From: Lachnospiraceae bacterium
Lineage (GTDB): Bacteria; Bacillota; Clostridia; Lachnospirales; Lachnospiraceae
Length of the DNA: 39,418 nt
NCBI GenBank assembly: GCA_022510545.1
Contig: JAFLTG010000019.1
Span: forward strand, 1 to 39,418
Direction: 5' to 3'
A program made the position numbers and the translations under genes. This document shows positions 3,506 to 33,511 of the stretch, in pieces. Position 1 is the stretch's first letter, and the number at the start of each line of letters is the position of its first letter. The notes below the pieces were generated by a model that worked only from the letters and a program-made list of their open reading frames with translations, was not told the DNA's origin and ran no database searches.

Positions 3506-3590
3506 AGGCCATGAAATATTGACAACTTTTTCACAGAAGGAATATAATAAAAATGATATTTGACAGTATGCAATGAAGGGGACAGGATTA

Positions 3591-8920: not shown

Positions 8921-9013
8921 ATTTATATAGATTTGTTAGTATACCTTCAGAGAAATTGGCAATACTATTGCTGTTAGTTAGAATTGCTGTATTTATTGAA
9001 GGAAGTGAAAGAT

Positions 9014-12967: not shown

Positions 12968-14479
12968 ATGGCATACAAGAAAACAAGTTTCAGCATTTTC
13001 CTGTGGATTGCATATACCTGTATCACAGGAGTAATACTGTCAGACTATGCAAATCTGCTGTGGAGAAAACAGATAAACATAGATAATCCTATGTATATGA
13101 GGGGTTTTGTTATTCTGTTTTATGTGTTATCTGTGTTTTTATTTGTTCTGTTTAGAAAAGTACTATCGCCACATATAAGCGGTAAGATTTATGAGAATAC
13201 CAAATTTGTATGGGAAACATTTGCAGTAATTGGCATTTTTGTAATAGGATTTATTTATCGTCTGTTTCATTGTTTTCAAAATGCTGCAAATGGGATAGTT
13301 GAGACTAACTTTTATAAAATGGCAATATTAAGAGAGGGAAGTAGTGTAGATAATATTGTGCATGGGGCTTCATACCTTTATGCACAATTTCTTTCCCTCG
13401 CTTTTTCTTTTCTTGGCAATAAAATCATGGCAGCGGTATGGATTCAGGTTTTTATTCAAATGCTGACCATTGTACTGGCTTATTTTATAATAAGAAAAAT
13501 GCTTGGAATAATTCCGGCCTGTACAGTTATGCTTACCTTGTCTATTTCTACCGTCTATACAGGAGAGATTCTTACACTGACTCCGGAAACTTTTTATTTT
13601 CTTCTTTATATCATAGGACTTTTTATAATAGGCAGCTATGTTAAGTCATATTGTCGAAATCTTTTAAGTGATTCGGGTAAAATCAGTGGGGCTGTGTTTT
13701 GTGGCATCGTTGTCAGTATCCTGTCTTATCTGGATGCGGTTTCGTTAACTTTGTTTATAATACTTTTTGGACTGATAAATGGCATACATATTTCCGACCT
13801 GTATGCTGATGATACATACGATGCGAATAGAGAGCAAAAAAGGCGAAAAACAGTCTCTGCATTGCTTTTTATTCTTACAATAGCTGCTTTTGTATTTACA
13901 ATGGCAGGTATATTTGTGTTGGATTCCTTATCCAGCGGAGATTCTATTAATATTGTATATAATGCATGGATTAAGCTCTATACAGGACAGGCATGGGTAG
14001 ACAACTCTATTTACAGAGATAACTATTCTCTGGCAGGATGTATAATTCAGATGGTTCTGGCGGCACTTATAATTCTGACATTCTGGAATGACCGTGAGGA
14101 GCAGAGCTTTACACCTTGGATATGCCTGATGATTACTACAGCACCCATGTCATTATCAGGTGTAAGTGTATTGAGATATCAAGTGTTTTATGTCTTTGTC
14201 TGGAGTATTCTGGCGGGACTTGGAATACAGCAGAGTCTTGGACTTAAAGCCATAACGGACAGACATAAGAGTTCTGAATCTGAGGCTGCGGAAACTGAAA
14301 ATGTGGCGGAAGATATTGCAGATTCGGCTGCTGCAGCCGGGAAACCAAGGTTTATTGAGAATCCTCTGCCGGTACCCAAGAAACATGAAAAGAAAGAGAT
14401 GGATTACCAGTATTATGTACCGGAACGTAAGATGAAATATGATATTGTGGTGCCGGATAACGATGACTTTGACATTTAA
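12968..14479 (+). CDS. Polytopic membrane protein, possibly GT-C-like
   Basis: This is a 503-residue protein with about eleven hydrophobic segments between residues 8 and 425 and a soluble, Glu- and Pro-rich tail of about 80 residues with no recognisable domain. An extracytoplasmic loop after the third or fourth segment (about residues 100-145) contains AANGIVETNFYKMA and HGASYLYAQFL, a layout like the first large loop of GT-C glycosyltransferases. I see no clear acidic-pair motif and do not assign an activity. The gene starts 19 nt after metY with GAAGGA upstream and probably shares its transcript. Its relation to methionine synthesis is not evident. Confidence 0.7.
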   Translation: MAYKKTSFSIFLWIAYTCITGVILSDYANLLWRKQINIDNPMYMRGFVILFYVLSVFLFVLFRKVLSPHISGKIYENTKFVWETFAVIGIFVIGFIYRLFHCFQNAANGIVETNFYKMAILREGSSVDNIVHGASYLYAQFLSLAFSFLGNKIMAAVWIQVFIQMLTIVLAYFIIRKMLGIIPACTVMLTLSISTVYTGEILTLTPETFYFLLYIIGLFIIGSYVKSYCRNLLSDSGKISGAVFCGIVVSILSYLDAVSLTLFIILFGLINGIHISDLYADDTYDANREQKRRKTVSALLFILTIAAFVFTMAGIFVLDSLSSGDSINIVYNAWIKLYTGQAWVDNSIYRDNYSLAGCIIQMVLAALIILTFWNDREEQSFTPWICLMITTAPMSLSGVSVLRYQVFYVFVWSILAGLGIQQSLGLKAITDRHKSSESEAAETENVAEDIADSAAAAGKPRFIENPLPVPKKHEKKEMDYQYYVPERKMKYDIVVPDNDDFDI

Positions 14480-14511
14480 TCGTTTATCTGCATAGAATAT
14501 TTTAGTTTTAA

Positions 14512-17480: not shown

Positions 17481-17620
17481 GATATTGCCTTTTGGCTTAT
17501 TTATTTATATAATTAATAGTAATATGGGGTTGTGTGCGCAAAAGATTGCTTTAATTTTTTTGGAAATTGATATTTGGAAATGTTTTAGCATGATTGCAAA
17601 ATACAGGAGTGATTAATATT

Positions 17621-18646
17621 ATGGAAAACTGGATTTTAGTGGTAGATGATGATACTGCGAATCTACGAATGGCCACACGTATTCTTGGCGAAGAGAAAAT
17701 GCGTGTAAGCTGCTTGAAATCTGGAGAGGATGCCATTAAGTTTTTGCAGGGAAACAGACCAGATCTTATTCTTCTGGATATACATATGCCGGGAATGGAC
17801 GGTTTTGAGACGATAGCCGCCATCAAGGGAAATAAAGATATATCGGATATACCTGTTATTTTTCTGACGGCGGATGATGATGATACAACAGAGACTAAGG
17901 GACTGCAGGCCGGAGCAATGGACTTTATTAAGAAGCCGTTTGTGCCGGATGTATTGTTGCTTCGTGTCAGGCATACCATTGAACTGGTTCGACTTCAGGC
18001 AGATTTGTCGCGGGAAGTGGCAATAAAGACACAGGAAGTGATAGCTCAGAGTGAAAAACTGCAGAGGATGGTTAACCAGACCGTTAAGGCCTTATCGGAT
18101 GCCATTGATGCCAAGGATGCATATACTAACGGTCATTCTACCAGAGTGGCGGAATATTCCAAAGAAATCGCAAAACGTGCAGGCCTTTCCGAAACAAGGC
18201 AGAACGATATTTACATAATGGGACTGCTTCATGATGTGGGAAAAATCGGAATTTCCGATACCATAATCAACAAACCGTCAAAGCTGACGGAGGAAGAGTA
18301 TACCGTCATAAAAAGCCATCCGATAATGGGTGAAAAAATATTAAAGAATATTACGGAGTTTCCGGAACTTCTGATCGGTGCCAGATGGCACCATGAACGT
18401 TATGATGGTAGGGGATATCCTGATGGAATTGTAGGTGAAGATATTCCGATGGAGGCACGGATCATCGCAATTGCGGATTCATATGATGCTATGAGCTCTA
18501 AAAGAAGCTATCGTGATAACTTGCCTCAGGAAACAATCCGCTTAGAAGTGGAAAAAGGAAAAGGTACACAATTTGATCCTAAATTTGCTGAAATAATGAT
18601 TGCTATGATAGATGAGGACGTGGATTATGTGATGAGAGAGAGGTAG
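17621..18646 (+). CDS. Response regulator with HD-GYP c-di-GMP phosphodiesterase
   Basis: This 341-residue protein joins a receiver (1-125; VVDDD, phospho-acceptor Asp53 in LLDIHMPGMDG, KKPF) through a short helix to an HD-GYP domain (about 150-335). The domain has GLLHDVGKIG (His204-Asp205), SHPIMGEKIL and WHHERYDGRGYPDG (257-270), so metal-site residues and the full GYP motif are present, predicting active hydrolysis of c-di-GMP. ATG 17621 follows CAGGAG; TTG 17594 is a poorer choice. It opens the signalling run, and the next gene starts 4 nt after its stop. Its receiver is a close paralogue of the N-terminal receiver at 26944. It is the only classical output domain in the run, so the kinases behind it are its likely phosphodonors (inference). 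Confidence 0.96.
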   Translation: MENWILVVDDDTANLRMATRILGEEKMRVSCLKSGEDAIKFLQGNRPDLILLDIHMPGMDGFETIAAIKGNKDISDIPVIFLTADDDDTTETKGLQAGAMDFIKKPFVPDVLLLRVRHTIELVRLQADLSREVAIKTQEVIAQSEKLQRMVNQTVKALSDAIDAKDAYTNGHSTRVAEYSKEIAKRAGLSETRQNDIYIMGLLHDVGKIGISDTIINKPSKLTEEEYTVIKSHPIMGEKILKNITEFPELLIGARWHHERYDGRGYPDGIVGEDIPMEARIIAIADSYDAMSSKRSYRDNLPQETIRLEVEKGKGTQFDPKFAEIMIAMIDEDVDYVMRER

Positions 18647-18650
18647 ACGA

Positions 18651-21467
18651 ATGTACGAACAGGAGAAACAAAAAGCAGTACATTTAATGATTTTAATATT
18701 CAATACTGTCTTTATTGCTATATTGGCAGTAGGAGCCATTTACTTTAAATTGGATATGTGGGCTTCTGTATTGTTCTTTATAGGACTGATCACAAGCTGG
18801 TTTGTGCATATTATGGGAAAGATTCCTGAGTCTATCAGGTTGTGGATGTATATTATTTTGGCAATGCTGGCATATTCTTATTTTGGAATATATGAAATGG
18901 GATTATTTGATCTGGCTTCAGTCATTATGATACTTATTCTCATATGCACTGCCACGGAAGAGTATGCTTTTGTCAGGCTTTGTGCTTTTACTTATTTATT
19001 AACTATGATATACAAAATTAATGTTGTGTATGACAGTATTCTGGATCTTCAAACAGAAGATATAATTAGAATACTTTGCAATATTGCGTTAGTTTTTGCG
19101 GGAGAACGTTTAGCGGAAACGATTCTGCAAAGGCGCAGGAAGGAAAGAGAGAGAGCGGACGAAAGGATAACCAGACTCGAAGAAGCCAATAGAAGTGTAG
19201 AGGATTTTCTGACAAATGTTTCACATGAGCTGCGTACGCCTATCAATGCCGTGACTGGAATCACAACTGTGATGCTCAAAAACGAAGAAGACACTGAGAA
19301 AAAGAAAGATATACTGTCAATACAAATGGCAGGAAACAGACTGTTTAGTCAGATTGAAGATATTCTGGATTATACGGAAATCGATACAGGCAGGATCATT
19401 GTCAGTGAAGAGAATTATATGATTTTCTCTATTATCAATGATATCATTGTTGAGAATCATCTGACTAAATGGGATAAAGATATGGAATTGATTTTTGACA
19501 TTGATGCCGGTATTCCCTCAGTTCTTCTTGGTGATGGCAGAAAAATCAAGAAGATAATTAAACATTTGATTGATAATGCAGTCAAATTCACCAAAAAAGG
19601 CGGCGTGTATGTAAGGGTATATGCTTTACAGAAAAATTACGGTATCAATCTGTGCATAAGGGTCAGTGATACCGGAATTGGAATGACAGAAGAAGAGATG
19701 GAAAGAATAACAGAGAAATTTGTTCAAGCCAACGGTGGAAGAAACCGAAAAGTCGGAGGACTGGGTCTTGGACTTTCTATTGTATATGGAATGGTCTCTG
19801 CTATGAATGGATTTATACGACTTGAGAGCGAAGATGGAAGAGGAACTACAGTATCTGTCAGCATTCCTCAGAAGGTAGTAGATGCTGCACCCAGTATGGA
19901 GGTGCAAAACCGTGACGAGTTATGTATAGCTCTTTACTTAAAACCGGAGAAATATGAAATTCCGGAAATCAGAGATTATTATAACGCAACTATCACCCAT
20001 TTGGTTCAAGGACTGGATCTTACGGTTCACAGAGTTTTTGATTCAGAAGAATTAAAGAAGCTGATTGGTATGTATCAATTGACTCACCTGGTCATTGGCA
20101 AAGAAGAGTATGAGGAGAACGCTTCATATTTTGAAAAAACGGATAATGATATGGAGATTGTCGTAGTGGCTGATGATGACTTTGTGCCTGAAGAGAACAG
20201 CAGGATTAATTTTATGAGAAAACCGTTCTATTGTCTGCCTATAGTCAATGTACTGAATGCCAAGACTTCTTTTGTAGTTGATGAGTTTGAGAGAGATAAG
20301 AATATGCTCTGTCCGGGTGTAAGAGTGCTTGTTGTAGATGATGAGCCTATGAATCTGATGGTTGCAGAGGGAATCTTTAAAGACTATCAAATGAGAGTTA
20401 GAACAGCTGAAGGCGGTATCGCTGCAATAGAAATTTGTAAGAAAGAAGATTTTGATTTGATTTTCCTAGATCACATGATGCCGGAAATGGATGGAGTGGA
20501 AACCTTAAAAAGGCTTCGCAAAATCCAAACGGATGCAGGAAAAACATATACTATCATCGCTTTTACTGCGAACGCTGTCAGCGGAGCAAGAGAAATGTTT
20601 TTGCAGGAAGGCTTTGATGAGTTTATTTCCAAGCCAATTGAAGATCACGAGCTTAGGAGGCTGCTTAAAAAAGTTCTTCCGAAGAACTCCATTATATATG
20701 CAGAAGGCAATGGAAATAAAAAGTCTCATATAGAAGAATATGGAGAAAATATGGAAAATGCTGCAGCAGGACATACAGATGCAGGATCGGATAGCGGACA
20801 AAAGCCTGTTTTCAATAATGTCACTGAACAGGATAAGTTTACCCGCCTTAATGAAATGGGATTTCATACAATGACAGGACTGCAATATTGCCGTGGCGAT
20901 AGAGAGTTTTATGAGGCAGTTCTTATTAAATATGCAAAAGATGCAGAGCATAAGATAACAGATATTGATGCTTCTTTCCGGGGAGATGATATTAAGAATT
21001 ATCAGATTATGGTTCATGCTTTGAAAAGTTCTTCCAGAATGGTGGGAGCAGGTGTGCTTTCGGAGATGGCGAAGGATTTAGAAGACGCTGCAAAAAATCA
21101 GGATTTAGCCTATATAAAAGAGAATCATAATGGCCTTATTGATAAATACCGTGAAACCGTGCAGAACATTTTAGATGTATTAGAGCCTGACATAATGGAT
21201 GCGCCGGAAGAGGAGCCTGTAACCGGAACAGAGATATCTAAGGATGAATTTAATGAGAAGTTGTTAAAATTAAAGAATAGTCTTGATACATTTGAAGCGG
21301 ATACTGCGGAAACTCTGATTACGGAAATGAAAGGGCTTGTATATCAGGGCAAGGCGGTAAGTGAGATTATGCGTGATATCAGACAGGATGTGGATGACTT
21401 TGAACTTGGTACGGCAGCACAAAAAGTGGAAGCACTCATTGACAGCATAGAAGGTGGTGAAGAATGA
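18651..21467 (+). CDS. Six-TM hybrid histidine kinase with receiver and HPt
   Basis: This is a 938-residue protein. About six TM helices (11-150) form the sensor, with no sizeable extracellular domain. A coiled-coil linker leads to HisKA (His192 in SHELRTP) and HATPase (HLIDNAVKFT, DTGIGM, GGLGLGLSIV). Residues 422-540 look like a degenerate receiver without the acidic pocket. A canonical receiver follows (about 556-672; VVDDE, Asp607 in FLDHMMPEMDG, Lys661). An HPt domain (about 730-850) carries His789 in MVHALKSSSRMVGA. A helical tail of about 70 residues is shared with the protein at 29645. The start is 4 nt after the HD-GYP stop, with GAGAGAGG overlapping that gene's end. The stop overlaps the next start by four bases (ATGA), so translation is coupled. 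Confidence 0.95.
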   Translation: MYEQEKQKAVHLMILIFNTVFIAILAVGAIYFKLDMWASVLFFIGLITSWFVHIMGKIPESIRLWMYIILAMLAYSYFGIYEMGLFDLASVIMILILICTATEEYAFVRLCAFTYLLTMIYKINVVYDSILDLQTEDIIRILCNIALVFAGERLAETILQRRRKERERADERITRLEEANRSVEDFLTNVSHELRTPINAVTGITTVMLKNEEDTEKKKDILSIQMAGNRLFSQIEDILDYTEIDTGRIIVSEENYMIFSIINDIIVENHLTKWDKDMELIFDIDAGIPSVLLGDGRKIKKIIKHLIDNAVKFTKKGGVYVRVYALQKNYGINLCIRVSDTGIGMTEEEMERITEKFVQANGGRNRKVGGLGLGLSIVYGMVSAMNGFIRLESEDGRGTTVSVSIPQKVVDAAPSMEVQNRDELCIALYLKPEKYEIPEIRDYYNATITHLVQGLDLTVHRVFDSEELKKLIGMYQLTHLVIGKEEYEENASYFEKTDNDMEIVVVADDDFVPEENSRINFMRKPFYCLPIVNVLNAKTSFVVDEFERDKNMLCPGVRVLVVDDEPMNLMVAEGIFKDYQMRVRTAEGGIAAIEICKKEDFDLIFLDHMMPEMDGVETLKRLRKIQTDAGKTYTIIAFTANAVSGAREMFLQEGFDEFISKPIEDHELRRLLKKVLPKNSIIYAEGNGNKKSHIEEYGENMENAAAGHTDAGSDSGQKPVFNNVTEQDKFTRLNEMGFHTMTGLQYCRGDREFYEAVLIKYAKDAEHKITDIDASFRGDDIKNYQIMVHALKSSSRMVGAGVLSEMAKDLEDAAKNQDLAYIKENHNGLIDKYRETVQNILDVLEPDIMDAPEEEPVTGTEISKDEFNEKLLKLKNSLDTFEADTAETLITEMKGLVYQGKAVSEIMRDIRQDVDDFELGTAAQKVEALIDSIEGGEE

Positions 21468-24136
21468 TGGGACCAAAGAAATGGTTTAGATCTATAAGAA
21501 ACCGCAATCTGGATCTGCAGGAGCGTCTGTTCCGTCTTCTTGTGCTGATTGGTCTTTGCGGTTTGGCAGTAGCAATTATAAACGGAATTGTAATAGGAGA
21601 GGAAACTGCTAATATTATTCCACTCATAATTGCATTTGTTATTTTGGCAGGTATAGTTTATTGTTCGCTGCACTTTCACAAGATACAGATGGGGGCAGTT
21701 ATAATAGGGGCAATAATCATATATTTTGTGTTACCGTTTAATTTCCTGACGACCGGAGGTATTTTCGGAGGTGCACCAATCTATCTTCTTTTTGGAATGG
21801 TCTATGTATGTCTGGTAGTCGAGGGTAAGATAAAATACATATTTCTGGCAAGCAGTTTTATAGTAAATGCAGTCTGTTATTATATTGCATATAATAATCC
21901 GACATTGGTTTCAAACCATACACAAAGCATGGCATATACAGATTCCGTTATGTCATTATTGATTGTCGGAGTTTGGATATGTGGTATGCTTATTTTCCAG
22001 AATGCTATCTTTTGCTCGGAAAATGCAATCTCAAAGCAGCAGAATAAGGAAATCGAAGAATTAAACCGGGCGCAAAATCGTTTTTTCTCCAGTATGAGCC
22101 ATGAAATCAGAACCCCCATCAATACAATAATCGGTTTAAATGAGATGATACTTCGGGAAGATGTGTCAGATGAGGTGGCGGCCGATGCAATAAATATTCA
22201 AGGCGCAAGTAAGATGCTGCTGTCGCTTATTAACGACTTTCTTGATGTATCCAAGATAGAATCAGGCAAGATGGATATTGTACCCGTTACTTATAATGTA
22301 GGTGATATGCTGTCAGATATCGTGAATATGATATGGGTACGTGCCAAAGATAAAGGACTTGAATTTCACATTAATGTGGATCCCTCAGTTCCGGCACAAC
22401 TATATGGGGATGAGGTACGCATTAAGCAAATATTGATAAATGTGTTAAATAATGCGGTTAAATATACACAGAAAGGTTCTGTAACCTTGTCAATTCAGAA
22501 CAAGGGAAATCAGTCGGATCAGGCACAGATTTGTTATTCCGTAACGGATACAGGTATGGGAATCAAAGAGGAAAGCATTCCTCATTTATTCAGTGCATTT
22601 AAGAGAGTAGATGAAGAGAATAACCGCCATATCGAAGGAACAGGACTTGGGCTGTCCATTGTAAAACAGCTGGTAGATTTGATGGGTGGTAACATTACAG
22701 TAAACAGCGTATACACGAAGGGATCGACTTTTATAATCACTCTGCCACAGAAGATTGCGGGAGATTCACAAATAGGGACCTACAGTCTTGAAGCCAAACG
22801 TGCGCGTGGAGCAAGGGAGCGTTATAAGCAAAGCTTTGAAGCACCCAGGGCGCGTATTCTAATAGTTGATGATAGTGAAACAAATCTGATGGTTGCAGAA
22901 AAACTCCTTCGTGCTACCAAGGTACAGATTGAAACTGTTACAAGTGGAAAGGAATGTCTAAAGAGTACGATTCAGAACAGATTTGACGTGATTTTAATGG
23001 ATCACCTTATGCCCGGAATGGATGGAATCGAATGTATGCAGGCAATCCGCACGCAGACGGGAGGTCTCAATCAGAATACACCCATTATTATTCTTACAGC
23101 GAATGCAGGCGGGGATAATAAGTCTATTTATCGAAAAGAAGGGTTTGATGGTTATCTGCTCAAACCAATCAGCGGTATACAGTTGGAGGAAGAGCTCTTA
23201 AAGCACCTTCCAGGTGAAATTGTGAATATGACAGGGAATGAAGGTTCCGTAGGTGTGGTTGAAACACCGACTATTGCACATAAGGATAAGCTTCCTGTAC
23301 TGATTACTACAGAAAGTGTGTGTGACCTTCCAAACGATCTTGTGGAAAAGTATCAGATTGCAGTTATGCCATATCGGGTAGTAACAGACGGTGGAGAGTT
23401 TTTGGATTCTGTAGAGATTGAGATGGAAGGTCTGCTCTCTTATATCAGCGGAAGTGATAAAAAGAATGCGCGTTCAGAAGAATCCACAGTTGCAGAATGT
23501 GAAGAATTTTTTGCCAAACAGGTGACAAAAGCACAAACTATTGTTCATATTACTATGGCGAAAAATGTCAGTTTAGGTTATGCCAATGCCATAGAGGCTG
23601 CCAATGCCTTTGATAATATTATTGTTGTGGATTCAGGACACTTGACTTGCGGAATGGGGCTTATGGTACTGCAGGCGGCAAAATATGCGGTTGATGGTAT
23701 GAGTGCCGAAGCTATTGCACGTGAACTGGAGGTTATGAAGAAAAGCATAAAAACCAGCTTCATTATGGAAAGTACCGAATATCTGGCACGCTCAGGAAGA
23801 CTTGCAACAAAAATACATGAAGTCTGTGATGCGCTTATGCTCCATCCGGTAATCGTATTAAAAAACAGCAGCTTAAAGGTTGGCGGAATTAAGATGGGAA
23901 CACAAGATTATGTTCGAAGTAAATATGTTTCCTCAACATTTAGGGACGCTGAGGAAGTCGATACAGAGCTGTTATTCATTGCTCATACAGGGTTGACCAA
24001 GGAAGAACTTGAGGACGTTAAAGAACAGGTACAAAGGAAAGTAAAATTCCGTAATATCATTTATCAGAAAGCATCATCGGCCATTTCAGCTAACTGTGGC
24101 CCACGCACCGTTTCTTTATGCTTTATGATGAAATAG
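21464..24136 (+). CDS. Hybrid kinase-receiver-DegV fusion, copy 1
   Basis: This 890-residue protein has six TM helices (about 24-182) as sensor and HisKA with His213 in SMSHEIRTP. The HATPase has intact N, G1 and G2 boxes (NVLNNAVKYT, DTGMGI, GTGLGLSIV). The receiver (about 464-588) is complete, with VDD, Asp513 in LMDHLMPGMDG, LTANA and LLKPI. After a linker of about 20 residues comes a DegV (EDD) domain at about 609-890: TTESVCDLPNDLV, VMPYRVVTDGGEFLD, VVDSGHLTCGMGLMVL, EYLARSGRL and a C-terminal NCGPRTVSL. DegV proteins bind fatty acids; in Firmicutes FakB they present them to the kinase FakA. There is no HPt. The GPG near the DegV end is GPR here. The ATGA overlap couples it to the gene before. 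Activity of the DegV part is untested. Confidence 0.93.
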   Translation: MMGPKKWFRSIRNRNLDLQERLFRLLVLIGLCGLAVAIINGIVIGEETANIIPLIIAFVILAGIVYCSLHFHKIQMGAVIIGAIIIYFVLPFNFLTTGGIFGGAPIYLLFGMVYVCLVVEGKIKYIFLASSFIVNAVCYYIAYNNPTLVSNHTQSMAYTDSVMSLLIVGVWICGMLIFQNAIFCSENAISKQQNKEIEELNRAQNRFFSSMSHEIRTPINTIIGLNEMILREDVSDEVAADAINIQGASKMLLSLINDFLDVSKIESGKMDIVPVTYNVGDMLSDIVNMIWVRAKDKGLEFHINVDPSVPAQLYGDEVRIKQILINVLNNAVKYTQKGSVTLSIQNKGNQSDQAQICYSVTDTGMGIKEESIPHLFSAFKRVDEENNRHIEGTGLGLSIVKQLVDLMGGNITVNSVYTKGSTFIITLPQKIAGDSQIGTYSLEAKRARGARERYKQSFEAPRARILIVDDSETNLMVAEKLLRATKVQIETVTSGKECLKSTIQNRFDVILMDHLMPGMDGIECMQAIRTQTGGLNQNTPIIILTANAGGDNKSIYRKEGFDGYLLKPISGIQLEEELLKHLPGEIVNMTGNEGSVGVVETPTIAHKDKLPVLITTESVCDLPNDLVEKYQIAVMPYRVVTDGGEFLDSVEIEMEGLLSYISGSDKKNARSEESTVAECEEFFAKQVTKAQTIVHITMAKNVSLGYANAIEAANAFDNIIVVDSGHLTCGMGLMVLQAAKYAVDGMSAEAIARELEVMKKSIKTSFIMESTEYLARSGRLATKIHEVCDALMLHPVIVLKNSSLKVGGIKMGTQDYVRSKYVSSTFRDAEEVDTELLFIAHTGLTKEELEDVKEQVQRKVKFRNIIYQKASSAISANCGPRTVSLCFMMK

Positions 24137-24170
24137 TGAAATGATGATATGTAAGAGGTGGTGAAAAGTA

Positions 24171-26855
24171 ATGCATATAAAGATGATTAACCCAAAGGAA
24201 TGGTTTAGAGCGATAGGAAATCAAAAGCTGGAACGGCAGGAACGTATGTTTCGTCTTCTTGTGACAATCGGACTATGTGGATTGGCCATAGCAATCACAA
24301 ACGGGATTGTAATAGGAGAGGACAAAAGCAATATTATTCCATTGGTAATTTCATTTTTTGTATTTGCAATTATTATTTATATTTCAATTATTTATCATAA
24401 AGTGCAGCTTGGAGCAGTCATAATAGGCGCCCTCATAATCTATCTGGTTCTGCCTTTTAATTTTCTTACATCCGGTGGAATTTATGGAGGTGCACCAATA
24501 TACCTTCTATTTGGACTGGTATATGTTTGTCTTGTTATTGAAGGAAAGATGAGGTACATATTTCTGGCAAGCAGTTTCATAATAAGTTTAGCCTGCTATT
24601 ATATTGTTTATAATAATCCGGCATTGATGGCCGGACATACAGTGGAAATGGCATATATTAATTCTATTATGTCATTGACAATAGTCGGTATAATGACCTG
24701 CGGAATGATACTTTTCCAGAATGCGATTTTCCGTTCGGAAAATGAAATTTCAAAACAGCAGAAACATGAAATTGAAGAACTTAATCGGTCGCAGAACCGC
24801 TTCTTCTCAAGTATGAGCCATGAAATAAGAACGCCTATCAATACCATTATCGGTCTGAATGAGATGATTCTTAGAGAAAATGTGTCAGATGAAGTGGCTG
24901 CCGATGCCATAAATATTCAGGCCGCAAGTAAGATGCTTCTTGCGCTTATTAATGACTTTCTAGATATGTCCAAGATAGAATCCGGAAAGATGGATATCGT
25001 GCCGGTAATTTATGATGTAGGCAATATGCTGTCTGACATTGTAAACATGATATGGGTACGTGCCAAAGAAAAGGGACTTGAATTTCATATTGATGTAGAC
25101 CAGGCAGTTCCTGCGAAGTTATACGGTGATGAAGTACGGATTAAGCAGATTTTGATAAATGTGTTAAGCAATGCGGTCAAGTACACGCAGGCAGGTTCTG
25201 TTACCCTGTCTATCCAGAGTAAGGGGAATGAGTCAGGTTATGCACAGATTTCTTATTCCGTAATGGATACCGGTATAGGAATCAAACAGGAGAATATTCC
25301 ATATCTGTTTAATGCGTTTAAGAGAGTGAATGAAGAAGAGAACCGCTATATTGAAGGAACAGGACTTGGGTTGTCCATTGTAAAGCAGCTGGTAGAGCTG
25401 ATGGGCGGTGATATAGCAGTAAACAGTGTATATACGAAAGGCTCAAATTTTGTAATCACGCTGCCGCAGAAAATTGCAAGCGATGCCAAGATTGGAAACT
25501 TTAATCTGGAAAACAAACAAACACTTAACGCAAGAGAGCATTACAAGCAAAGCTTCGAGGCGCCGGACGCCAGCGTTCTTATAGTTGATGACAACGAGAC
25601 GAACCTAATGGTTGCAGAAAAGCTGTTGCGGGATACCAAAGTGCAGGTTGAATCTGCCACAAGCGGTGCTGAATGTTTAAAGAAGACGCTTCAGAATAGA
25701 TATGATGTGATATTGATGGATCACCTTATGCCCGGAATGGATGGAATTGAATGTCTGCATGAAATCCGCAAGCAGGCGGGGAGCGCCAATCAAAATACAC
25801 CAATTGTGATTCTGACAGCAAATGCAGGAAGTGAGAATCAGGTTCTTTACCGGAAAGAGGGATTTAATGGTTATTTGACCAAGCCGGTCAACGGAGCGCA
25901 GTTGGAGACAGAACTTTTAAAGCATCTGCCAAAAGAGATTGTAAATATGACAAGCATAGAAGGATCCGTTGGAATAATCGAAACCCCTATTGTTGCATAT
26001 AAAAAGAAGATGTCGGTTATGATTTCCACAGATAATGTATGTGATCTTCCGGAGGATATTGTGGAAAATAACCAGATAGCGGTCATGCCATTCAGATTGC
26101 GCACAGAAGGCGGAGAGTTCTTAGACGGAGTAGAGGCTGAGGTGAATGGAATTATTTCTTATATGAGTAAGGGAGAAGGAAAGCTTGTCAAATCCGTATC
26201 GCCTGAAATATTAGATTATGAAGAGTTCTTCGCTGAACAACTGACCAAAGCACAGTATATTATTCACATTACCACGGCGAGATATGCCAGTGAGGGTTAT
26301 GCCAATGCTTTAGAAGCTTCTAAAACATTTGATAATGTCACTGTTGTGGATTCAGGACACTTATCCAGCGGAATGGGGCTTATGGTATTACGTGCAGCTG
26401 AATATGCAGCAGAAGGAATGAGTGCTGATGCTATTTTGAATGAAATAAAGGTTATGAAGAAACGCATCAAAACCAGCTTTATCGTGGAAACCACGGAATA
26501 TCTGGCGCGTTCCGGCAGAATTTCGTCCAAAGTCAATGAGATATGCAAAGCGCTTATGCTTCATCCGGTACTTGTTTTGAAGAAAAGCAACATAAAAGTG
26601 GGTGCCGTCAGAATAGGGGCAAAGGATTATGTGAGAAAGAAATACGTTAATTCAATACTTAATGTTATTGGAGAGATTGATAAGAGAATGTTATTTATTA
26701 CTTATGTCGGAATGACAAAGGAAGAACTTGAAGATGTTGTAAAACAGGTAAAAAGAAAAGTTGACTTCCAGAATATCATTTGTCAGAAAGCATCATCGGC
26801 AATTGCGACCCATTGCGGGCCTGGTACCGTTGGTTTGCTTTTTATGATGAAGTAG
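24171..26855 (+). CDS. Hybrid kinase-receiver-DegV fusion, copy 2
   Basis: This 894-residue tandem paralogue of the preceding gene is collinear with it over its whole length apart from four extra N-terminal residues. It has six TM helices (about 28-186), HisKA His217, a HATPase with all boxes, and a receiver with its acceptor Asp517 in LMDHLMPGMDG. The DegV domain (about 613-894) has STDNVCDLPEDIV, VMPFRLRTEGGEFLD, VVDSGHLSSGMGLMVL, EYLARSGRI and HCGPGTVGLLFM, so the GPG absent from copy 1 is present. By eye the kinase core is far more conserved between copies than the DegV part, suggesting distinct ligands. AAGAGGTGGTG precedes the ATG, 35 nt after copy 1. No HPt is present. Confidence 0.93.
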   Translation: MHIKMINPKEWFRAIGNQKLERQERMFRLLVTIGLCGLAIAITNGIVIGEDKSNIIPLVISFFVFAIIIYISIIYHKVQLGAVIIGALIIYLVLPFNFLTSGGIYGGAPIYLLFGLVYVCLVIEGKMRYIFLASSFIISLACYYIVYNNPALMAGHTVEMAYINSIMSLTIVGIMTCGMILFQNAIFRSENEISKQQKHEIEELNRSQNRFFSSMSHEIRTPINTIIGLNEMILRENVSDEVAADAINIQAASKMLLALINDFLDMSKIESGKMDIVPVIYDVGNMLSDIVNMIWVRAKEKGLEFHIDVDQAVPAKLYGDEVRIKQILINVLSNAVKYTQAGSVTLSIQSKGNESGYAQISYSVMDTGIGIKQENIPYLFNAFKRVNEEENRYIEGTGLGLSIVKQLVELMGGDIAVNSVYTKGSNFVITLPQKIASDAKIGNFNLENKQTLNAREHYKQSFEAPDASVLIVDDNETNLMVAEKLLRDTKVQVESATSGAECLKKTLQNRYDVILMDHLMPGMDGIECLHEIRKQAGSANQNTPIVILTANAGSENQVLYRKEGFNGYLTKPVNGAQLETELLKHLPKEIVNMTSIEGSVGIIETPIVAYKKKMSVMISTDNVCDLPEDIVENNQIAVMPFRLRTEGGEFLDGVEAEVNGIISYMSKGEGKLVKSVSPEILDYEEFFAEQLTKAQYIIHITTARYASEGYANALEASKTFDNVTVVDSGHLSSGMGLMVLRAAEYAAEGMSADAILNEIKVMKKRIKTSFIVETTEYLARSGRISSKVNEICKALMLHPVLVLKKSNIKVGAVRIGAKDYVRKKYVNSILNVIGEIDKRMLFITYVGMTKEELEDVVKQVKRKVDFQNIICQKASSAIATHCGPGTVGLLFMMK

Positions 26856-26943
26856 CTAAGCCTTTGAGATTACGCCTGTGAAGGAGATTATATTTCAAAA
26901 AGGCTTTAATAATAGATTGTATAATAGAGGGGTGGTTAATAAT

Positions 26944-29613
26944 ATGAATAATTGGATTTTAGTGGTAGATGATGATGCAGCTAATCTTAGAATGGCAAGC
27001 AGCATACTTAGTGCGGAAAAAATGCGTGTCAGTTGTTTGAAATCAGGGGAGGATGCCATTACATTTTTGCAGGAGAACAGACCGGATCTCATTCTTTTAG
27101 ATATACATATGCCGGGAATGAACGGTTTTGAGACAATAGAGACTATTAAGAGAAATGAAAAAACAGCGGATATACCTGTTATATTCTTGAGTGCTGATGA
27201 TGACAACAGTGCAGAGACAAGAGGATTGGAAATCGGTGCCAAGGATTTTATCAAGAAGCCATTTGTACCGGATGTGCTGTTACTTCGTGTCAGAAATACG
27301 ATTGAATTGGTTCGTCTTCAGGCTAATTTGGAGAGGGAAGTAGAAATTAAGACACAGGATGAACATCTCTATAAAGAAGTAGTTACCAATATGAGAGAAG
27401 GTGTTATGGTAATCAGTATGAACGGTAAGATTACCATGCTCAATCCGGCGGCGGAGGACATGCTTGACTTGACTCAGAATGATGTCGGAGAGGCATATGG
27501 AAATATCTTTTTGATGCGCGAAGGTACGGATGCCTTTAATGAGGTTATTTTTAATACTATTTATGAAAAGGGTAAAGTAGACAATAAGGCTGTTGATTAT
27601 TTATGCAACGGAGAAGTAAGGAATCTTTCTTTAACTACCAGTTATATACATAGTAAGGGAGAGAAATCTGTAGTAGTCGTAATGAGTGATATGACTGAAC
27701 TCAATGAACTTCGTGATGCCCAGACTGCGTTGGAAAAGATAAAAAAACTAAATGTGGAATATGAGAAGGCAAAAAATGAAGCGATTATGGCAAACGAAGC
27801 TAAGAGCCTCTTTCTTTCCAATATGTCACATGAGATCAGAACCCCTATTAATGCAGTGCTGGGTATGAATGAGATGATCTTAAGAGAATGTACGGATGAA
27901 CAGCTGCTGACTTATGCGGACAATATACGAAGCTCCGGAAAGACTCTGTTATTTTTGATCAATGATATTCTGGATATGTCAAAGATTGAGTCCGGCAAGA
28001 TGGAAATTGTCAGAGTAGATTATGAGCCTGCCGCTTTGATAATGGATCTATGGAATGTCATCTTTTTACGTGCGCAGCAGAAAGATCTGTCAATTAAGTT
28101 TTCGCTGGATGAAACGTTGCCAAAGATGATTCATGGAGACGACGTAAGGATTAAGCAAATAGTAACAAATCTATTGACCAATGCAGTCAAATATACGCCT
28201 CAGGGCGGAATTGAAATGCATGTGGCCTACGAAAGGCATGGGGATGAACATATATCCCTTATTATATCCGTAAAGGATACGGGTATGGGTATCAAGAAAG
28301 AAGATATGGGAAAGCTGTTTGAGAGTTTTCAGAGACTGGATGAGGAAAAGAACAGAAATATTGAAGGAACAGGTCTCGGAATGAATATCACTATGTCGCT
28401 GCTTAAATTGATGGATGGCGACATGAAGGTTGAGAGCGAATACGGGAAGGGTTCTACTTTTACGGTTACTATACCTCAGAGGATTGTAATTGACGAACCC
28501 ACGGGAGATTTTGAATCCATTAAGACCAGTCAGGAACAGAACAGGGCATTAAGTGGTCAGCACTTTGAAGCTCCTGATGCCAATATTCTTGTTGTGGATG
28601 ACAATGCTATGAACCTTACAGTATTTAAATCACTTCTTAAACGTACCAAGATGAATATTGTTACGGCAGATTCCGGTATGAAGTGTTTGGAACTTGTGAA
28701 AAAAGAGCATTTCCATATTATTTTCATGGATCATATGATGCCGGAAATGGACGGAATTGAGACTCTGCATGAGATTCAGAAGCTGTCCGATTTTCCGAAT
28801 GAAGGGACACCGGTTATTGTCCTTACGGCAAATGCGCTTTCCGGAGCCAGAGAAGGCTATATGAAAGAAGGGTTTGCAGATTTCCTAACCAAGCCGATTG
28901 ATGGAGACCTGCTGGAACGCACCGTTGCTAATTTCCTTCCGGAAGAGCTGATTAAGGCAAAAGAAGACGGTGTACAGGATACGGAAACAGATACTGCATA
29001 TATTGATTATGAAGGCTATTTACAATATGGTATTTCTATAGAAAACGGCCTGTCTCTTGCCAAAGGGGATATGGATATATATCTGGATCTGATTGAAATG
29101 TTTATGAGAGATCATGAAAAACAACATGATGCAATGCAAGAGTTTATTGAGCAGAATAATATGAAAGACTATGCTATTTGGGTACACGGCTTAAAGGGTA
29201 ATGCAAGAACCTTGGGTGCAGACAAATTGGCGGATATGGCATATGAGCATGAAATGAAGAGCAAATCTGATGATGCTGAATATGTTGAAACTCACTGGGA
29301 TGAGCTGGTTGATCTCTGGGAAGAGACTCATGAAGGTTTTCAGGAGTTCTACGGCGGATATAGAGGCAACGATGATAAATATGCTATGGTAAGCAGCGAT
29401 AATGGAGAGGTGCTGCATTTGACTAATGACGATTTGGATAAGGTTGCATCACTTCTTGATGATTTTGCGACGCAACAAGCCTTGGAACAGTTAAAAGAAT
29501 GGATAAGTCAACCTCTGGAACAGGATATGCATGCACGAATCAAAGACGTATTAATTGCTTTGGAAGATGAATTTGATGAGGATAAGGCAATAGAACTGTT
29601 AAGGAAAGCATGA
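26944..29613 (+). CDS. Soluble REC-PAS-kinase-REC-HPt hybrid protein
   Basis: This 889-residue protein has no TM segment. Receiver 1 (1-125, Asp53) is paralogous to the receiver of the HD-GYP protein at 17621. A PAS domain follows (about 142-252; GVMVISMNGKITMLNPAAED), then HisKA (His296 in SHEIRTP) and HATPase (TNLLTNAVKYT, DTGMGI, GTGLGMNIT). Receiver 2 (about 545-665) has Asp596 in FMDHMMPEMDG. The HPt domain (about 700-800) has His748 in IWVHGLKGNARTLGA. A helical tail closes the protein. An N-terminal receiver on a kinase suggests control by another kinase of the cluster. ATG 26944 follows GAGGGGTGG; a GTG at 26878 would add 22 residues and is unlikely. The 88-nt gap before it has no convincing promoter. 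Confidence 0.95.
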   Translation: MNNWILVVDDDAANLRMASSILSAEKMRVSCLKSGEDAITFLQENRPDLILLDIHMPGMNGFETIETIKRNEKTADIPVIFLSADDDNSAETRGLEIGAKDFIKKPFVPDVLLLRVRNTIELVRLQANLEREVEIKTQDEHLYKEVVTNMREGVMVISMNGKITMLNPAAEDMLDLTQNDVGEAYGNIFLMREGTDAFNEVIFNTIYEKGKVDNKAVDYLCNGEVRNLSLTTSYIHSKGEKSVVVVMSDMTELNELRDAQTALEKIKKLNVEYEKAKNEAIMANEAKSLFLSNMSHEIRTPINAVLGMNEMILRECTDEQLLTYADNIRSSGKTLLFLINDILDMSKIESGKMEIVRVDYEPAALIMDLWNVIFLRAQQKDLSIKFSLDETLPKMIHGDDVRIKQIVTNLLTNAVKYTPQGGIEMHVAYERHGDEHISLIISVKDTGMGIKKEDMGKLFESFQRLDEEKNRNIEGTGLGMNITMSLLKLMDGDMKVESEYGKGSTFTVTIPQRIVIDEPTGDFESIKTSQEQNRALSGQHFEAPDANILVVDDNAMNLTVFKSLLKRTKMNIVTADSGMKCLELVKKEHFHIIFMDHMMPEMDGIETLHEIQKLSDFPNEGTPVIVLTANALSGAREGYMKEGFADFLTKPIDGDLLERTVANFLPEELIKAKEDGVQDTETDTAYIDYEGYLQYGISIENGLSLAKGDMDIYLDLIEMFMRDHEKQHDAMQEFIEQNNMKDYAIWVHGLKGNARTLGADKLADMAYEHEMKSKSDDAEYVETHWDELVDLWEETHEGFQEFYGGYRGNDDKYAMVSSDNGEVLHLTNDDLDKVASLLDDFATQQALEQLKEWISQPLEQDMHARIKDVLIALEDEFDEDKAIELLRKA

Positions 29614-29644: not shown

Positions 29645-32600
29645 ATGACAGTAAAGAAGAAACGCTTTAGTATGAAGTTGCAACAACTTATTATCACAGC
29701 AATGGCTGTTATCCTTGTTGGTATCATGGTTGTAAATGTTGTGTTGATGTATGATATAGCGTTGAAACAGACCGAAGAAATAGGTCGTATGAGGGTACAG
29801 AATATTGCAACAGGATTTCAGAAGTCGCTTACACGGGCTGAGTATACGCTTGAGAGAGCATGTGACAGCCTGAAGGAATTGATTCATAATAAGGCAACAG
29901 AGGAAGAAATCCGTAGTTTCCTTTCGGAGCAGAGAAATATTGAATACAGTCTGTCTGACGGAGTATGCTTGAATGTATTCTGTATTGTGAAAGGTGTCGT
30001 AATGATATCGGATATGGAGACACCGGAGGATTACGTCTTGCAGGACCGCATTTGGTATCGTGGACTTTTGGCAGCCGGGAGAGGCGAAATATACATATCC
30101 CCGACCTATGAGGATGCATTTACCGACAATATGTGCTTCACGGTTGCGATAATGCTTGAGGATGGTGCGACTGTAGTAGGTTTAGACTATAGCGTTGCAG
30201 AAATTCAGTCTTATGTGAATGAGATGGGCAGCAATGAATACGGTGACGCAATGATTGTCGATTCAAATGAGGTAATCGTGGGATATACGAATCCGGATAT
30301 GATTGGAAAGAAACTTTCCGCAGTATTACCACAGTATCGCGACGTTTTTCTGCGTGCGGTCGCGTCGGATGAAGAGAATATGTCTTTAGAGACCTCTACT
30401 TCAGGAGAAGACAGCACAATATTTTGCAGCAGGACGGACAACGGCTGGTATATGATGTGCAGTGTAAGCAATTCGGCGCTGTATCGAGAGAATTATACAC
30501 AGCTGATATATAATTTTATTGTTGTCCTTCTATTAGTATTTGTGATATTGATTATCTATTTCAAAGGCTTGCGCGATAAGCGCCAGGCTGAATCTATTAT
30601 CCGGGACAGGGAAGATAAATATACCAAGGATAATAAAGAAAAAGAGCAGATTGACCTTACAGTCAGTGAGCAGCGCAAATATCAAATCGGAATCACCAGC
30701 ATTTTTGTCGTGACAATGATAATTGCAATATTTGGTAATGCATCAATGTCAATTAACGAAAGCCGCGTAAAGATGGAGGAAGAGCTTCGGGAATACAATT
30801 ATGAAGTGGGGGATTGGATTCTAGAGCAGAAAAGTATTCTCGACATGTTTAATAACGTCGTTGCGGCTAAACCCGAAATGCTACGAAACTATGATGATAT
30901 GGTGAAATTTCTGGATGATATTACAAAGCATTATCCGAAAATTTCCGCCACCTACATTGCGAACCCCAAATTTTCACATGGACACCCGATGGTAATGAAC
31001 AATGGTTGGGTGCCTGAACCTGATTATGTGGAAGAAGAACGTATCTGGTATACCGGTGCATTGACGGCGGAAGACTTCAATATCACAGAACCGTATTATG
31101 ATGCAAGAACGGGTGAATACTGTATTACTTTTTCCAAAGTGGTAAAATCAGATGGAGGTGACTTTTACGGCGTATTTGCCATCGATTTTTATCTGGATGT
31201 GTTAATGGATATCCTGGGAGAGAGCTACTCAGAACAAGGTTACGCATTTTTGGTGGATAAGAATGGACTGATAATAGACCATCCTAATTCCGAATATGAA
31301 CTTTCGGATGATGCTTCTGTTAATATACATGATCTGGTATATGACAGACTTTACAGTGAAACCGGAATGGTAGTTCTTAAAGATTATGATGAAGAGTATA
31401 AAGTTTGTGCATCTATGGATGAAACTGTTTCAGGTTTCCGGATTATTGTGGTCAAGGATTGGTGGAGCATATATGGCAATGTGCTGCAGTATGCAATTCT
31501 TTTCCTGGGACTTTTTGGAGGATGTATATTGGCAGTCAACGTGGTTATAACCAGAATGATACGGTGGCAGTCAAAGGCAAACGATAATTTGAAAGAAACA
31601 GCTGAAGCGGCAATACGGGCGGAACAGGCAAAATCACGCTTCCTCTCAAATATGTCCCATGAAATCAGAACACCTATCAATGCAGTGCTTGGAATGAATG
31701 AGATGATACTGCGTGAATGCAAGGACGAACAGCTGATTTCGTATGCAGAAAACATTCAAAATTCGGGAAAAACACTGTTATTTCTTATTAATGACATCCT
31801 TGATATGTCTAAAATCGAGTCGGGAAAGATGGAGATTGTTCCGACGCAGTACTATATAGCAGATGTTATAATAGATTTGTGGAATGTTATCTACCTTAGG
31901 GCGCAGGAGAAGGGACTGTCGGTTGACTTTATATTGGACGAAACAATGCCACAGATGCTCTATGGAGATGAAGTAAGGATCAAGCAGATTGCGACCAATC
32001 TATTGACCAATGCAGTCAAATATACATCCAAAGGGGGTATAGAGCTTAAGGTTACCTATGAAAGAACTATGGAAGATAAGATAGATCTTGTCATATCCGT
32101 GAAGGATACAGGGATGGGAATCAAACAAGAGGATATGGGTAAGCTGTTTGAAAGCTTCCAGAGATTGGATGAAGAGAAGAACCGGAATATAGAAGGTACA
32201 GGGCTTGGTATGAACATCACAATGTCACTGCTTAAATTGATGGAAGGTGACATAAAGGTGGATAGTGAGTACAGCAAAGGTTCTGTTTTTACAGTCACGA
32301 TACCTCAGAAAATTATAAATAATGAACCCACGGGCGATTTTGAGCGGGTTTTGGGCAGGAAGAGGTTAGAAGCGGTACAGAGTGGTGAAAGCTTTGAAGC
32401 ACCTGATGCAAGTGTACTGGTGGTAGATGATAATGATATGAACCTGACTGTGTTTGAAGCATTGTTGAAGCGTACACAAATGAACATAGTCACGGCGGAT
32501 TCCGGTAAGAAGTGTCTTGAGCTTGTAAAACAGAAACCATTCAATATCATTTTTATGGACCATATGATGCCCGAGATGGATGGAATAGAGACAATTCAAG

Positions 32601-33511
32601 AGATTAAGAAACTAAAGGATTTCCCGAATGAGAATACACCGGTAATAGCGCTGACGGCAAATGCGCTTTCAGGTGCAAGAGAATCTTATCTTAAGGAAGG
32701 GTTCGTGGACTTTTTGACAAAGCCGATTGATGCCGACAGCTTAGAGCAGATGATTGTTTCTTATCTGCCTGAGGAACTAGTGCATATTGTAGAGGAAAAT
32801 GACAGTAAAGCGCTGTATGCAAAGGAACAAAGAATTGATACGAAGCAGCTTGATTCACAGGAACCTATTTCAGATAATGATAAGGATAATGAGAAGATTG
32901 CCAGGCTGGAAGAAGAGGGTTTTCATACAAAGGATGGATTACAATACTGCCGTAATAATATAGAGTTTTATGAAAATATGCTTGCAAAATTTGCAAAAGA
33001 TGCAGAGCACAAGATTGCGGATATTGAAGATTCTTATGTGAAAGAAGATTTGGCAAATTACCAAATTATGGTGCATGCTTTAAAGAGTACTTCTAAAATG
33101 GTGGGAGCCAATACGCTGTCGGAGCTGGCAAAGAATGCGGAAGAAGCCGCAAAAAATAATGAAGCAGATTATATTAAGGAGAATCATGCAGGTCTTATAG
33201 ACAAGTACCAGGAAACGGTAAATAGTATTTATGATGTGTTGGATCTTGATGAAGAGGTTTCTTCGGAGGAGGCTGATGCAACGGGAAAAGAGATGCCTAA
33301 GGATGAACTGGTTGAGAAGCTGATGAAGCTAAAGGACAGCCTTCATACATTTGAAGCGGATGCGTCAGAAGCTCTGCTTGAAGAAATGTGCGGATTTGTA
33401 TATCGGGGCAAATCGGTCAGTGAACTTTTGCATGATATCAAGCAGGATGTGGAGGACTTCGAACTTAGTGCAGCTGCCAAGAAGGTAGAAGAACTCATTG
33501 ATAGAATATAA
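29645..33511 (+). CDS. Double-dCache hybrid histidine kinase with receiver and HPt
   Basis: This is a 1288-residue membrane kinase. TM1 (about 13-35) and TM2 (about 289-307) bracket a first periplasmic-type dCache. A charged cytoplasmic linker leads to TM3 (about 347-365), a second dCache and TM4 (about 614-636). Both sensors carry the residues of the amino-acid-binding dCache signature: Tyr130, Arg135, Trp137, Tyr155, Asp157 and Asp181 in the first, and Tyr461, Arg466, Trp468, Tyr484, Asp486 and Asp514 in the second. HisKA has His672. The HATPase is intact. The receiver acceptor is Asp972 and the HPt histidine is His1144. The C-tail matches that of the 18651 protein. A GGAGG precedes the ATG, 31 nt after the previous gene. 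Amino acids are the predicted ligands (inference). Confidence 0.94.
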   Translation: MTVKKKRFSMKLQQLIITAMAVILVGIMVVNVVLMYDIALKQTEEIGRMRVQNIATGFQKSLTRAEYTLERACDSLKELIHNKATEEEIRSFLSEQRNIEYSLSDGVCLNVFCIVKGVVMISDMETPEDYVLQDRIWYRGLLAAGRGEIYISPTYEDAFTDNMCFTVAIMLEDGATVVGLDYSVAEIQSYVNEMGSNEYGDAMIVDSNEVIVGYTNPDMIGKKLSAVLPQYRDVFLRAVASDEENMSLETSTSGEDSTIFCSRTDNGWYMMCSVSNSALYRENYTQLIYNFIVVLLLVFVILIIYFKGLRDKRQAESIIRDREDKYTKDNKEKEQIDLTVSEQRKYQIGITSIFVVTMIIAIFGNASMSINESRVKMEEELREYNYEVGDWILEQKSILDMFNNVVAAKPEMLRNYDDMVKFLDDITKHYPKISATYIANPKFSHGHPMVMNNGWVPEPDYVEEERIWYTGALTAEDFNITEPYYDARTGEYCITFSKVVKSDGGDFYGVFAIDFYLDVLMDILGESYSEQGYAFLVDKNGLIIDHPNSEYELSDDASVNIHDLVYDRLYSETGMVVLKDYDEEYKVCASMDETVSGFRIIVVKDWWSIYGNVLQYAILFLGLFGGCILAVNVVITRMIRWQSKANDNLKETAEAAIRAEQAKSRFLSNMSHEIRTPINAVLGMNEMILRECKDEQLISYAENIQNSGKTLLFLINDILDMSKIESGKMEIVPTQYYIADVIIDLWNVIYLRAQEKGLSVDFILDETMPQMLYGDEVRIKQIATNLLTNAVKYTSKGGIELKVTYERTMEDKIDLVISVKDTGMGIKQEDMGKLFESFQRLDEEKNRNIEGTGLGMNITMSLLKLMEGDIKVDSEYSKGSVFTVTIPQKIINNEPTGDFERVLGRKRLEAVQSGESFEAPDASVLVVDDNDMNLTVFEALLKRTQMNIVTADSGKKCLELVKQKPFNIIFMDHMMPEMDGIETIQEIKKLKDFPNENTPVIALTANALSGARESYLKEGFVDFLTKPIDADSLEQMIVSYLPEELVHIVEENDSKALYAKEQRIDTKQLDSQEPISDNDKDNEKIARLEEEGFHTKDGLQYCRNNIEFYENMLAKFAKDAEHKIADIEDSYVKEDLANYQIMVHALKSTSKMVGANTLSELAKNAEEAAKNNEADYIKENHAGLIDKYQETVNSIYDVLDLDEEVSSEEADATGKEMPKDELVEKLMKLKDSLHTFEADASEALLEEMCGFVYRGKSVSELLHDIKQDVEDFELSAAAKKVEELIDRI

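Follow-up and report, generated by a model that had tools for sequence, protein, structure and literature searches.

FakB, the fatty-acid-binding protein of the DegV family (PF02645, TIGR00762), is a stand-alone soluble protein that serves fatty acid kinase (FakA) as substrate carrier. In FakB1 of Staphylococcus aureus, the bound carboxylate is part of the network Ser171-His270-Thr62-carboxylate-Ser95 and Arg173 packs on the fatty acid. The structure of the R173A protein with palmitate is unchanged, yet this protein is catalytically inactive, and Arg173 is required for catalysis with FakA (PMC8892158). DegV is sometimes one domain within a multidomain protein, the relevant passages naming no kinases (PMC12288450). 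In Xanthomonas, the fatty acid diffusible signal factor (DSF) is bound by RpfC, a hybrid kinase with receiver (REC) and Hpt domains that relies on its N-terminus and membrane helices for sensing, and RpfG is an HD-GYP regulator hydrolysing cyclic di-GMP (c-di-GMP) (PMC5391125). In a rumen survey, 96 species had genes annotated as RpfC/RpfG, and genes related to DSF were reported mainly from Negativicutes (PMC9540692). The DNA analysed here is a stretch of 39 418 nucleotides (the window) from a Lachnospiraceae bacterium (GCA_022510545.1, contig JAFLTG010000019.1). In two adjacent genes of the window, a DegV domain is fused to a membrane histidine kinase (HK), after the kinase and its receiver.

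Like FakB, the fused domains have full length, the predicted fold and, for the most part, the serines of the carboxylate site, but they follow a kinase and a receiver and form a separate clade. They further differ by Asn in place of His270, by the frequent loss of Arg173 and by His-Pro in place of Lys-Pro. As in RpfC/RpfG, a kinase of the order transmembrane (TM)-HK-REC-Hpt (HK1, 18651-21467) is encoded beside a receiver-HD-GYP protein (17594-18646); the cassette adds a second kinase with the DegV domain. The DSF synthase RpfF belongs to the crotonase family. No Pfam match to an rpfF-like, crotonase-type gene was obtained among the 23 open reading frames (ORFs) of the window that were scanned, and for this reason membership of the Rpf family is not claimed. 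Functionally, the cassette is probably akin to a lipid-responsive phosphorelay leading to c-di-GMP. With the REC-Hpt hybrid kinases of the TorS/BarA type, the fused kinases share a catalytic core that matches the NCBIfam TorS/BarA models below their equivalog cut-offs; they differ in that DegV replaces or precedes Hpt.

The reading that we favour, with a probability of about 0.55, is that DegV is a lipid-binding regulatory domain (most likely for a fatty acid or acyl chain) of membrane hybrid kinases, which would act in a two-kinase phosphorelay to c-di-GMP enzymes. The observations behind it are the domain make-up, the DegV fold predicted with high confidence, the conserved kinase and receiver residues, the gene order, the presence of one Hpt per pair and the loss of FakB-specific residues in most fused members.

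DegV domains fused to hybrid kinases

The cassette of the window consists of the following genes and domains.

17594..18646, plus strand: HD-GYP response regulator (Response_reg and HD_5; Pfam, 105.1 and 114.5 bits)
18651..21467, plus strand: HK1, partner hybrid kinase of 938 aa, HisKA-HATPase-REC-Hpt (Pfam)
20925..21110, plus strand: Hpt domain of HK1, residues 759-820 (Pfam PF01627, 34.0 bits, cut-off 24.6)
21464..24136, plus strand: fused kinase copy 1, 890 aa, membrane helices-HisKA-HATPase-REC-DegV (ORF, Pfam, NCBIfam)
23297..24127, plus strand: DegV domain of copy 1, residues 612-888 (Pfam, NCBIfam)
24171..26855, plus strand: fused kinase copy 2, 894 aa, same architecture as copy 1 (ORF, Pfam, NCBIfam)
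25575..25910, plus strand: receiver domain of copy 2, residues 469-580, with Asp517 as predicted phospho-acceptor (Pfam)
26016..26846, plus strand: DegV domain of copy 2, residues 616-892 (Pfam, structure model)

Copies 1 and 2 are 71% identical. In both, DegV was matched over its full length by PF02645 (143.5 and 148.9 bits, cut-off 27) and TIGR00762 (149.1 and 173.5 bits, cut-off 99.7), in agreement with the fatty-acid-binding type of domain of full family length announced by the original prediction, which had been made from the sequence alone. The DegV domain of copy 2 was modelled with AlphaFold2 using an alignment of 64 natural sequences (mean predicted local distance difference test (pLDDT) 94.2, predicted TM-score (pTM) 0.90). 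Among the Foldseek matches listed for this model, the top 45 were all DegV-family structures (query TM-score 0.74-0.86) and most were titled fatty-acid or lipid binding (e.g. 2dt8, 1pzx, 4x9x, 1mgp and 5uto). The comparison with FakB that had been proposed at the outset thus brought up DegV/FakB crystal structures, 5uto being S. aureus FakB1. A DegV fold is predicted with high confidence in the fused kinases. A chance C-terminus, which the original prediction had already dismissed, is ruled out by the agreement of profile match and predicted fold.

According to the Foldseek titles, the wider fold also includes DhaQ and DhaK. DhaQ is a precedent in this wider fold for ligand-dependent regulation. 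The fused DegV could then bind a small non-lipid ligand, as these dihydroxyacetone-binding proteins do. We consider this very unlikely. DhaQ and DhaK show 9-14% identity, have another ligand and occur without a kinase fusion.

As regards the lipid-binding regulatory domain that we favour, the kinase to which it would be coupled was analysed in the window and across the family. HisKA, HATPase_c and Response_reg were found in each fused protein (Pfam, NCBIfam), so that the complete kinase core and receiver described earlier in both genes were recovered. The six transmembrane helices described with them stood as a hydrophobic N-terminus, their number being five or six: the N-terminal part of copy 2 is strongly hydrophobic and compatible with either (hydropathy). 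For the family, 155 ORFs of fused length were reduced to 131 unique proteins by a sequence filter, some of which (L078, L120 and L131) are N-terminally cut. All 131 share the phospho-His and, in the receiver, both acidic residues, the phospho-Asp and the Lys; 130 have the N-box Asn. From these residues, the kinase looks intact. The mean entropy was 0.90 bits for HisKA, 1.99 for DegV, 2.46 for the transmembrane part and 2.73 for the linker. The lower variability of DegV compared with the transmembrane part and the linker was counted in favour of a regulatory DegV.

In a quick maximum-likelihood tree, the 131 fused DegV domains were separated by one branch (SH-aLRT 99) from 24 stand-alone domains, a small and non-random set of which 20 came from the high-scoring end of the list; the program warned of a long fused branch (L079) near the split. 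On this tree, the fused DegV domains form one clade and are read as having a single origin. The tandem pair also occurs in a genome of another genus (L061), where each copy groups with its own counterpart (supports 100 and 98). At L061, a DAGK_cat/YegS_C gene of the diacylglycerol-kinase type (13586-14500, minus strand) overlaps the kinase above the tandem pair and is a lipid-enzyme neighbour of it.

The draft genome to which the window belongs (contig C90) measures 2.85 Mb and has seven DegV loci. Four of them are stand-alone; the others are the two fusions of the window and one more fusion (C136; 40% identity). The original prediction had asked how often the order HisKA-HATPase-REC-DegV occurs. 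In the genus, 42 of the 50 genomes (own genome included) gave fused-protein matches that reach into DegV, one of these matches being partial and one having an in-frame stop. Beyond the genus the fusion is carried by at least 68 of 397 genomes of the family (85 matches listed, own genome included), and it is rare outside, in at least 1 of 247 genomes of the order's other families and at least 2 of 188 genomes of the class's other orders (both of one genus). The family, order and class counts are lower bounds, with 2, 3 and 4 candidates per genome scored, respectively. Five matches that are incomplete, truncated or interrupted by an in-frame stop (G312 and G320 in the genus; G381, G391 and G163 in the family) were included in the counts without fetching their sequences; G274 and G428, in which the match does not reach DegV, were not counted.

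Contigs of named genomes were scanned with a closer set of 5 sequences, a 9-sequence alignment being too divergent; with this query, relatives of the window copies are favoured among the named loci. Kinase and DegV were in one frame in 78 of the 80 loci obtained, most of which are titled Lachnospiraceae or other metagenome bins. Two strain-named Lachnospiraceae records that are not marked as metagenome-assembled genomes, Lachnospiraceae bacterium G41 and Butyrivibrio sp. LC3010, also carry the fusion (in LC3010 as a 1157-aa frame of the long class described below). An assembly error is excluded by the recurrence in many genomes and by these two records; the fusion is real and widespread within one bacterial family. 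For a viral origin, viral contigs were scanned once using one protein as query, a search limited to close relatives, and nothing matched. At L063 (6887-9880), a 997-aa frame continues past DegV into unknown residues and a proline run; this C-terminus is probably an assembly artefact.

A two-kinase cassette with one Hpt per pair

The original prediction took the two fused genes as the unit and missed a larger one, a conserved two-kinase cassette lying mostly beside c-di-GMP enzymes. An upstream neighbour is present for 113 fused genes (112 loci), and for 106 of them this gene, directly upstream and on the same strand, is an orthologue of HK1. The spacing is 40 bases or less in 104 of these 106 pairs; the genes abut or overlap in 65 and overlap by exactly four bases in 37, some overlaps being possibly overstated because the longest-ORF starts were taken. 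The window's own pair is outside the 106 and has the same four-base overlap, between the stop of HK1 and the start of copy 1. Seven of the 113 were set aside with an upstream neighbour outside the HK1 cluster, which is a kinase or kinase fragment at L061 (twice), L063, L087 and L122. The N-terminus of the window's HK1 is hydrophobic (hydropathy). About 150 of its residues (~408-558), from HATPase to receiver, are without Pfam match and are perhaps a degenerate receiver.

Hpt domains were counted with our own profile, seeded from both kinds of Hpt. Each of the 106 pairs has exactly one: it is in HK1 in 92 and in the fused kinase (HK2) in 14, and no pair has it in both or in neither. Pfam, run on 10 of these 106 HK1 proteins, gave the same answer, with five positives of which one scored 24.5 bits, just below the cut-off of 24.6; it found no Hpt in the two fused proteins of the window. 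Hpt-bearing HK2 proteins belong to a long class, a clade of 15 fused proteins of 1114-1162 aa. In these, Hpt lies after DegV (Pfam in 3 of 3 scanned, own profile in 14) and the partner HK1 (676-695 aa) is without Hpt in 5 of 5 scanned. The long-class Hpt is best matched by those of other hybrid kinases (115-191 bits) versus 84-96 bits for that of HK1, and a literal move of the HK1 Hpt into HK2 is unsupported. These scores point to a replacement: the Hpt of HK1 was lost and HK2 acquired one of another source, which is what a requirement for exactly one Hpt per pair would predict. Three cassettes outside the family, two from another order and one from another family, keep HK1 with Hpt directly upstream; in the two from another order, a protein of ~600 aa with receivers at both ends is encoded above HK1.

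The gene above HK1 in the window (17594..18646) contains the motifs HDVGK and HHERYDGRGYP. Its product is a predicted c-di-GMP phosphodiesterase and the predicted output of the cassette. The same-strand gene at this position was counted for 97 of the 106 HK1 loci, 4 opposite-strand and 5 contig-edge cases being excluded. A receiver was found in 80, an HD-GYP-type HD in 61, GGDEF in 9 and a methyl-accepting chemotaxis protein (MCP) domain in 8, some genes (e.g. at L123) carrying two of these domains. The motif HHExxDGxGYP is present in 56 of 58 genes of the HD-GYP cluster. The cassette regulator at L123 (1593-3971) combines receivers, GGDEF and HD-GYP, and that at L127 (11726-13486) has GGDEF and two receivers. 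At L076, L077, L079, L144, L145, L150, L153 and L154, the genes above HK1 fall in a single cluster, identified as MCP at L076, and each is accompanied by a small conserved gene. At L076, the one MCP locus scanned, this small gene follows the MCP gene and encodes CheW. These neighbours suggest a chemotaxis link.

Ligand site and proposed function

Site equivalences were set by the printed profile alignment to FakB1 (6mh9). FakB1 positions 62, 95, 171, 173 and 270 correspond to Ser671, Ser703, Ser777, Arg779 and Asn877 in copy 1 and to Ser675, Ser707, Ser781, Arg783 and His881 in copy 2. Across the 131 fused domains, the Thr62 position is occupied by Ser (97), Ala (17) or Thr (12), the Ser95 position by Ser (87) or Gly (30) and the His270 position by Asn in 121 and His in 3. 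Arg173 is kept in 47 and is Lys in 37, and Lys-Pro has become His-Pro in 114. The 24 stand-alone domains have Thr62 in 23, Ser95 in 24, His270 in 21 and Arg173 in 24. The position of the membrane-contacting Arg205 is not conserved in the fused domains, the alignment being less sure there. The FakB set Thr62-Ser95-Ser171-His270 with Arg173 is thus not a property of the fused family as a whole. By identity, the fused domains fall into subclades A (31), B (31), C (23), D (18) and E (14), with 14 further divergent. Subclades A (which includes both window copies), B, D and E mostly have Ser62 and Ser95 with a new Asn270-Cys271. From these residues, we infer a modified pocket freed from its FakA partner, with ligands that probably differ among subclades.

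Two functions had been offered by the original prediction, a lipid-sensing kinase and a phosphorylation-controlled lipid carrier. The sensor is favoured because Arg173 is mostly lost, the Arg205 position is not conserved and the ligand-site serines are mostly kept; the carrier is the weaker of the two. As a carrier, DegV would be the output: receiver phosphorylation would control a tethered fatty-acid carrier feeding FakA, and fatty-acid uptake or activation would be regulated. DegV is indeed placed after the receiver, as response-regulator outputs are, copies 1 and 2 retain the Ser-Gly-Arg triad of FakB1 171-173, and a FakA-like Dak2 gene lies on a different contig of the genome, in which the four stand-alone DegV genes are also found. 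However, the Arg173 needed for FakA catalysis (PMC8892158) is missing in 84 of 131 fused domains, His270 is replaced in 128 and the Arg205-type membrane contact is not conserved. Between receiver and Hpt, where DegV sits in the long class, an output would be oddly placed. In a BLAST search, the 1113 ORFs of 116 neighbourhoods yielded neither a FakA-like protein nor a stand-alone DegV. An output function is therefore considered unlikely.

DegV could also have lost ligand binding and serve only to position the two kinases of the pair or their Hpt and receiver domains. The strong co-occurrence with HK1 would agree with such a scaffold, as would the substitutions of Arg173 and His270 that most fused domains show and those at 62 and 95 in subclade C. 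Against it, Ser62/Ser95 and the new Asn270-Cys271 in most members of subclades A, B, D and E indicate a modified site and not a decayed one, and ligand-free FakB proteins are reported to be insoluble or unstable (PMC10146087, PMC8892158). A scaffold is also regarded as unlikely.

If DegV is a lipid-binding regulatory domain, the following mechanism can be proposed. The cassette consists, most often, of a c-di-GMP response regulator, HK1 (TM-HK-REC-Hpt) and HK2 (TM-HK-REC-DegV), HK2 being present twice in the window. HK2 would autophosphorylate and transfer the phosphate to its own receiver. Depending on whether DegV is lipid-bound or unbound, the kinase/phosphatase balance of HK2 or the accessibility of its receiver would shift. 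By way of the one Hpt that the two kinases share, phosphate would then reach the receiver-HD-GYP (or GGDEF) protein encoded next to them, and the lipid state would thereby set the c-di-GMP level. Here, we infer the identity of the ligand, the direction of regulation, the phosphotransfer between partners and the c-di-GMP output. A wider proposal is made tentatively: the cassettes may be a Lachnospiraceae family of fatty-acid-sensing phosphorelays, two-kinase units sharing one Hpt, in which a captured carrier domain would read the lipid state and set c-di-GMP (with one locus group perhaps acting on chemotaxis). They would parallel DSF/Rpf signalling in Gram-positive bacteria while using a ligand-binding domain of their own.

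Several points weigh against a lipid-binding regulatory DegV acting in this phosphorelay. Subclade C (23, including the third copy of the genome) mostly has Ala at 62 (16) and Gly at 95 (22) and therefore may bind something else or nothing, and the 14 divergent proteins are mixed at the site positions. Both window copies keep the Ser-Gly-Arg triad and copy 2 also has His at 270, which places them among the most FakB-like at these positions. The tree rests on the small, selected stand-alone set mentioned above. HK1 and DegV distances correlate at r 0.90 (107 pairs; no value as high in 999 permutations), which counts in favour of a unit passed on complete, by inheritance or transfer, but shared species history contributes to this correlation. 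The Hpt switch is confined to one clade and is therefore probably a single event, with an HK2 Hpt closer to that of other hybrid kinases. On the output side, 17 of the 97 genes above HK1 are without receiver and some with receiver are without c-di-GMP domain. The HDxGK pattern is present in 45 of the 58 HD-GYP cluster genes, and the control for the HD-GYP gene, itself in favour of the cassette (61 of 104 HK1 genes have an HD-GYP gene as direct upstream neighbour, versus 1 of 20 other kinases of the same loci), rests on 20 kinases.

Neighbouring genes and significance

Two further hybrid kinases follow the cassette in the window.

26878..29613, plus strand: neighbour hybrid kinase REC-PAS-HisKA-HATPase-REC-Hpt (ORF, Pfam)
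29645..33511, plus strand: neighbour hybrid kinase dCache-HisKA-HATPase-REC-Hpt (ORF, Pfam)

The first starts 22 bases downstream of copy 2 on the same strand and is possibly on the same transcript as the fused genes; the second lies 31 bases beyond it, also on the same strand. A FIST-FIST_C-GGDEF protein encoded near the cassette (35907-37676, minus strand) is predicted from its domains to be another sensor tied to c-di-GMP. Elsewhere in the window, the ORFs 12968-14479 (503 aa) and 3573-4292 (239 aa) had no Pfam match at E 0.001, and a MazF/PemK-type gene (8984-9355) adjoins an alanine racemase gene.

The literature was searched in open-access PubMed Central. Neither the HisKA-HATPase-REC-DegV architecture nor a kinase reading fatty acids through a FakB-type pocket was described among the matches listed, and Butyrivibrio with cyclic di-GMP and histidine kinase gave no match. 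The remark in the original prediction that no function had been described for the architecture holds for these matches, and the fused kinase family is apparently undescribed in the literature searched.

The rule of one Hpt per pair provides a testable prediction on how two hybrid kinases share a phosphorelay. Gut and rumen bacteria of the Lachnospiraceae meet dietary and microbial fatty acids. If DegV senses lipid, a carrier protein would have been turned into a signalling domain, and the lipid-dependent behaviour of these commensals could be approached with a defined protein, a ligand assay and a c-di-GMP output.

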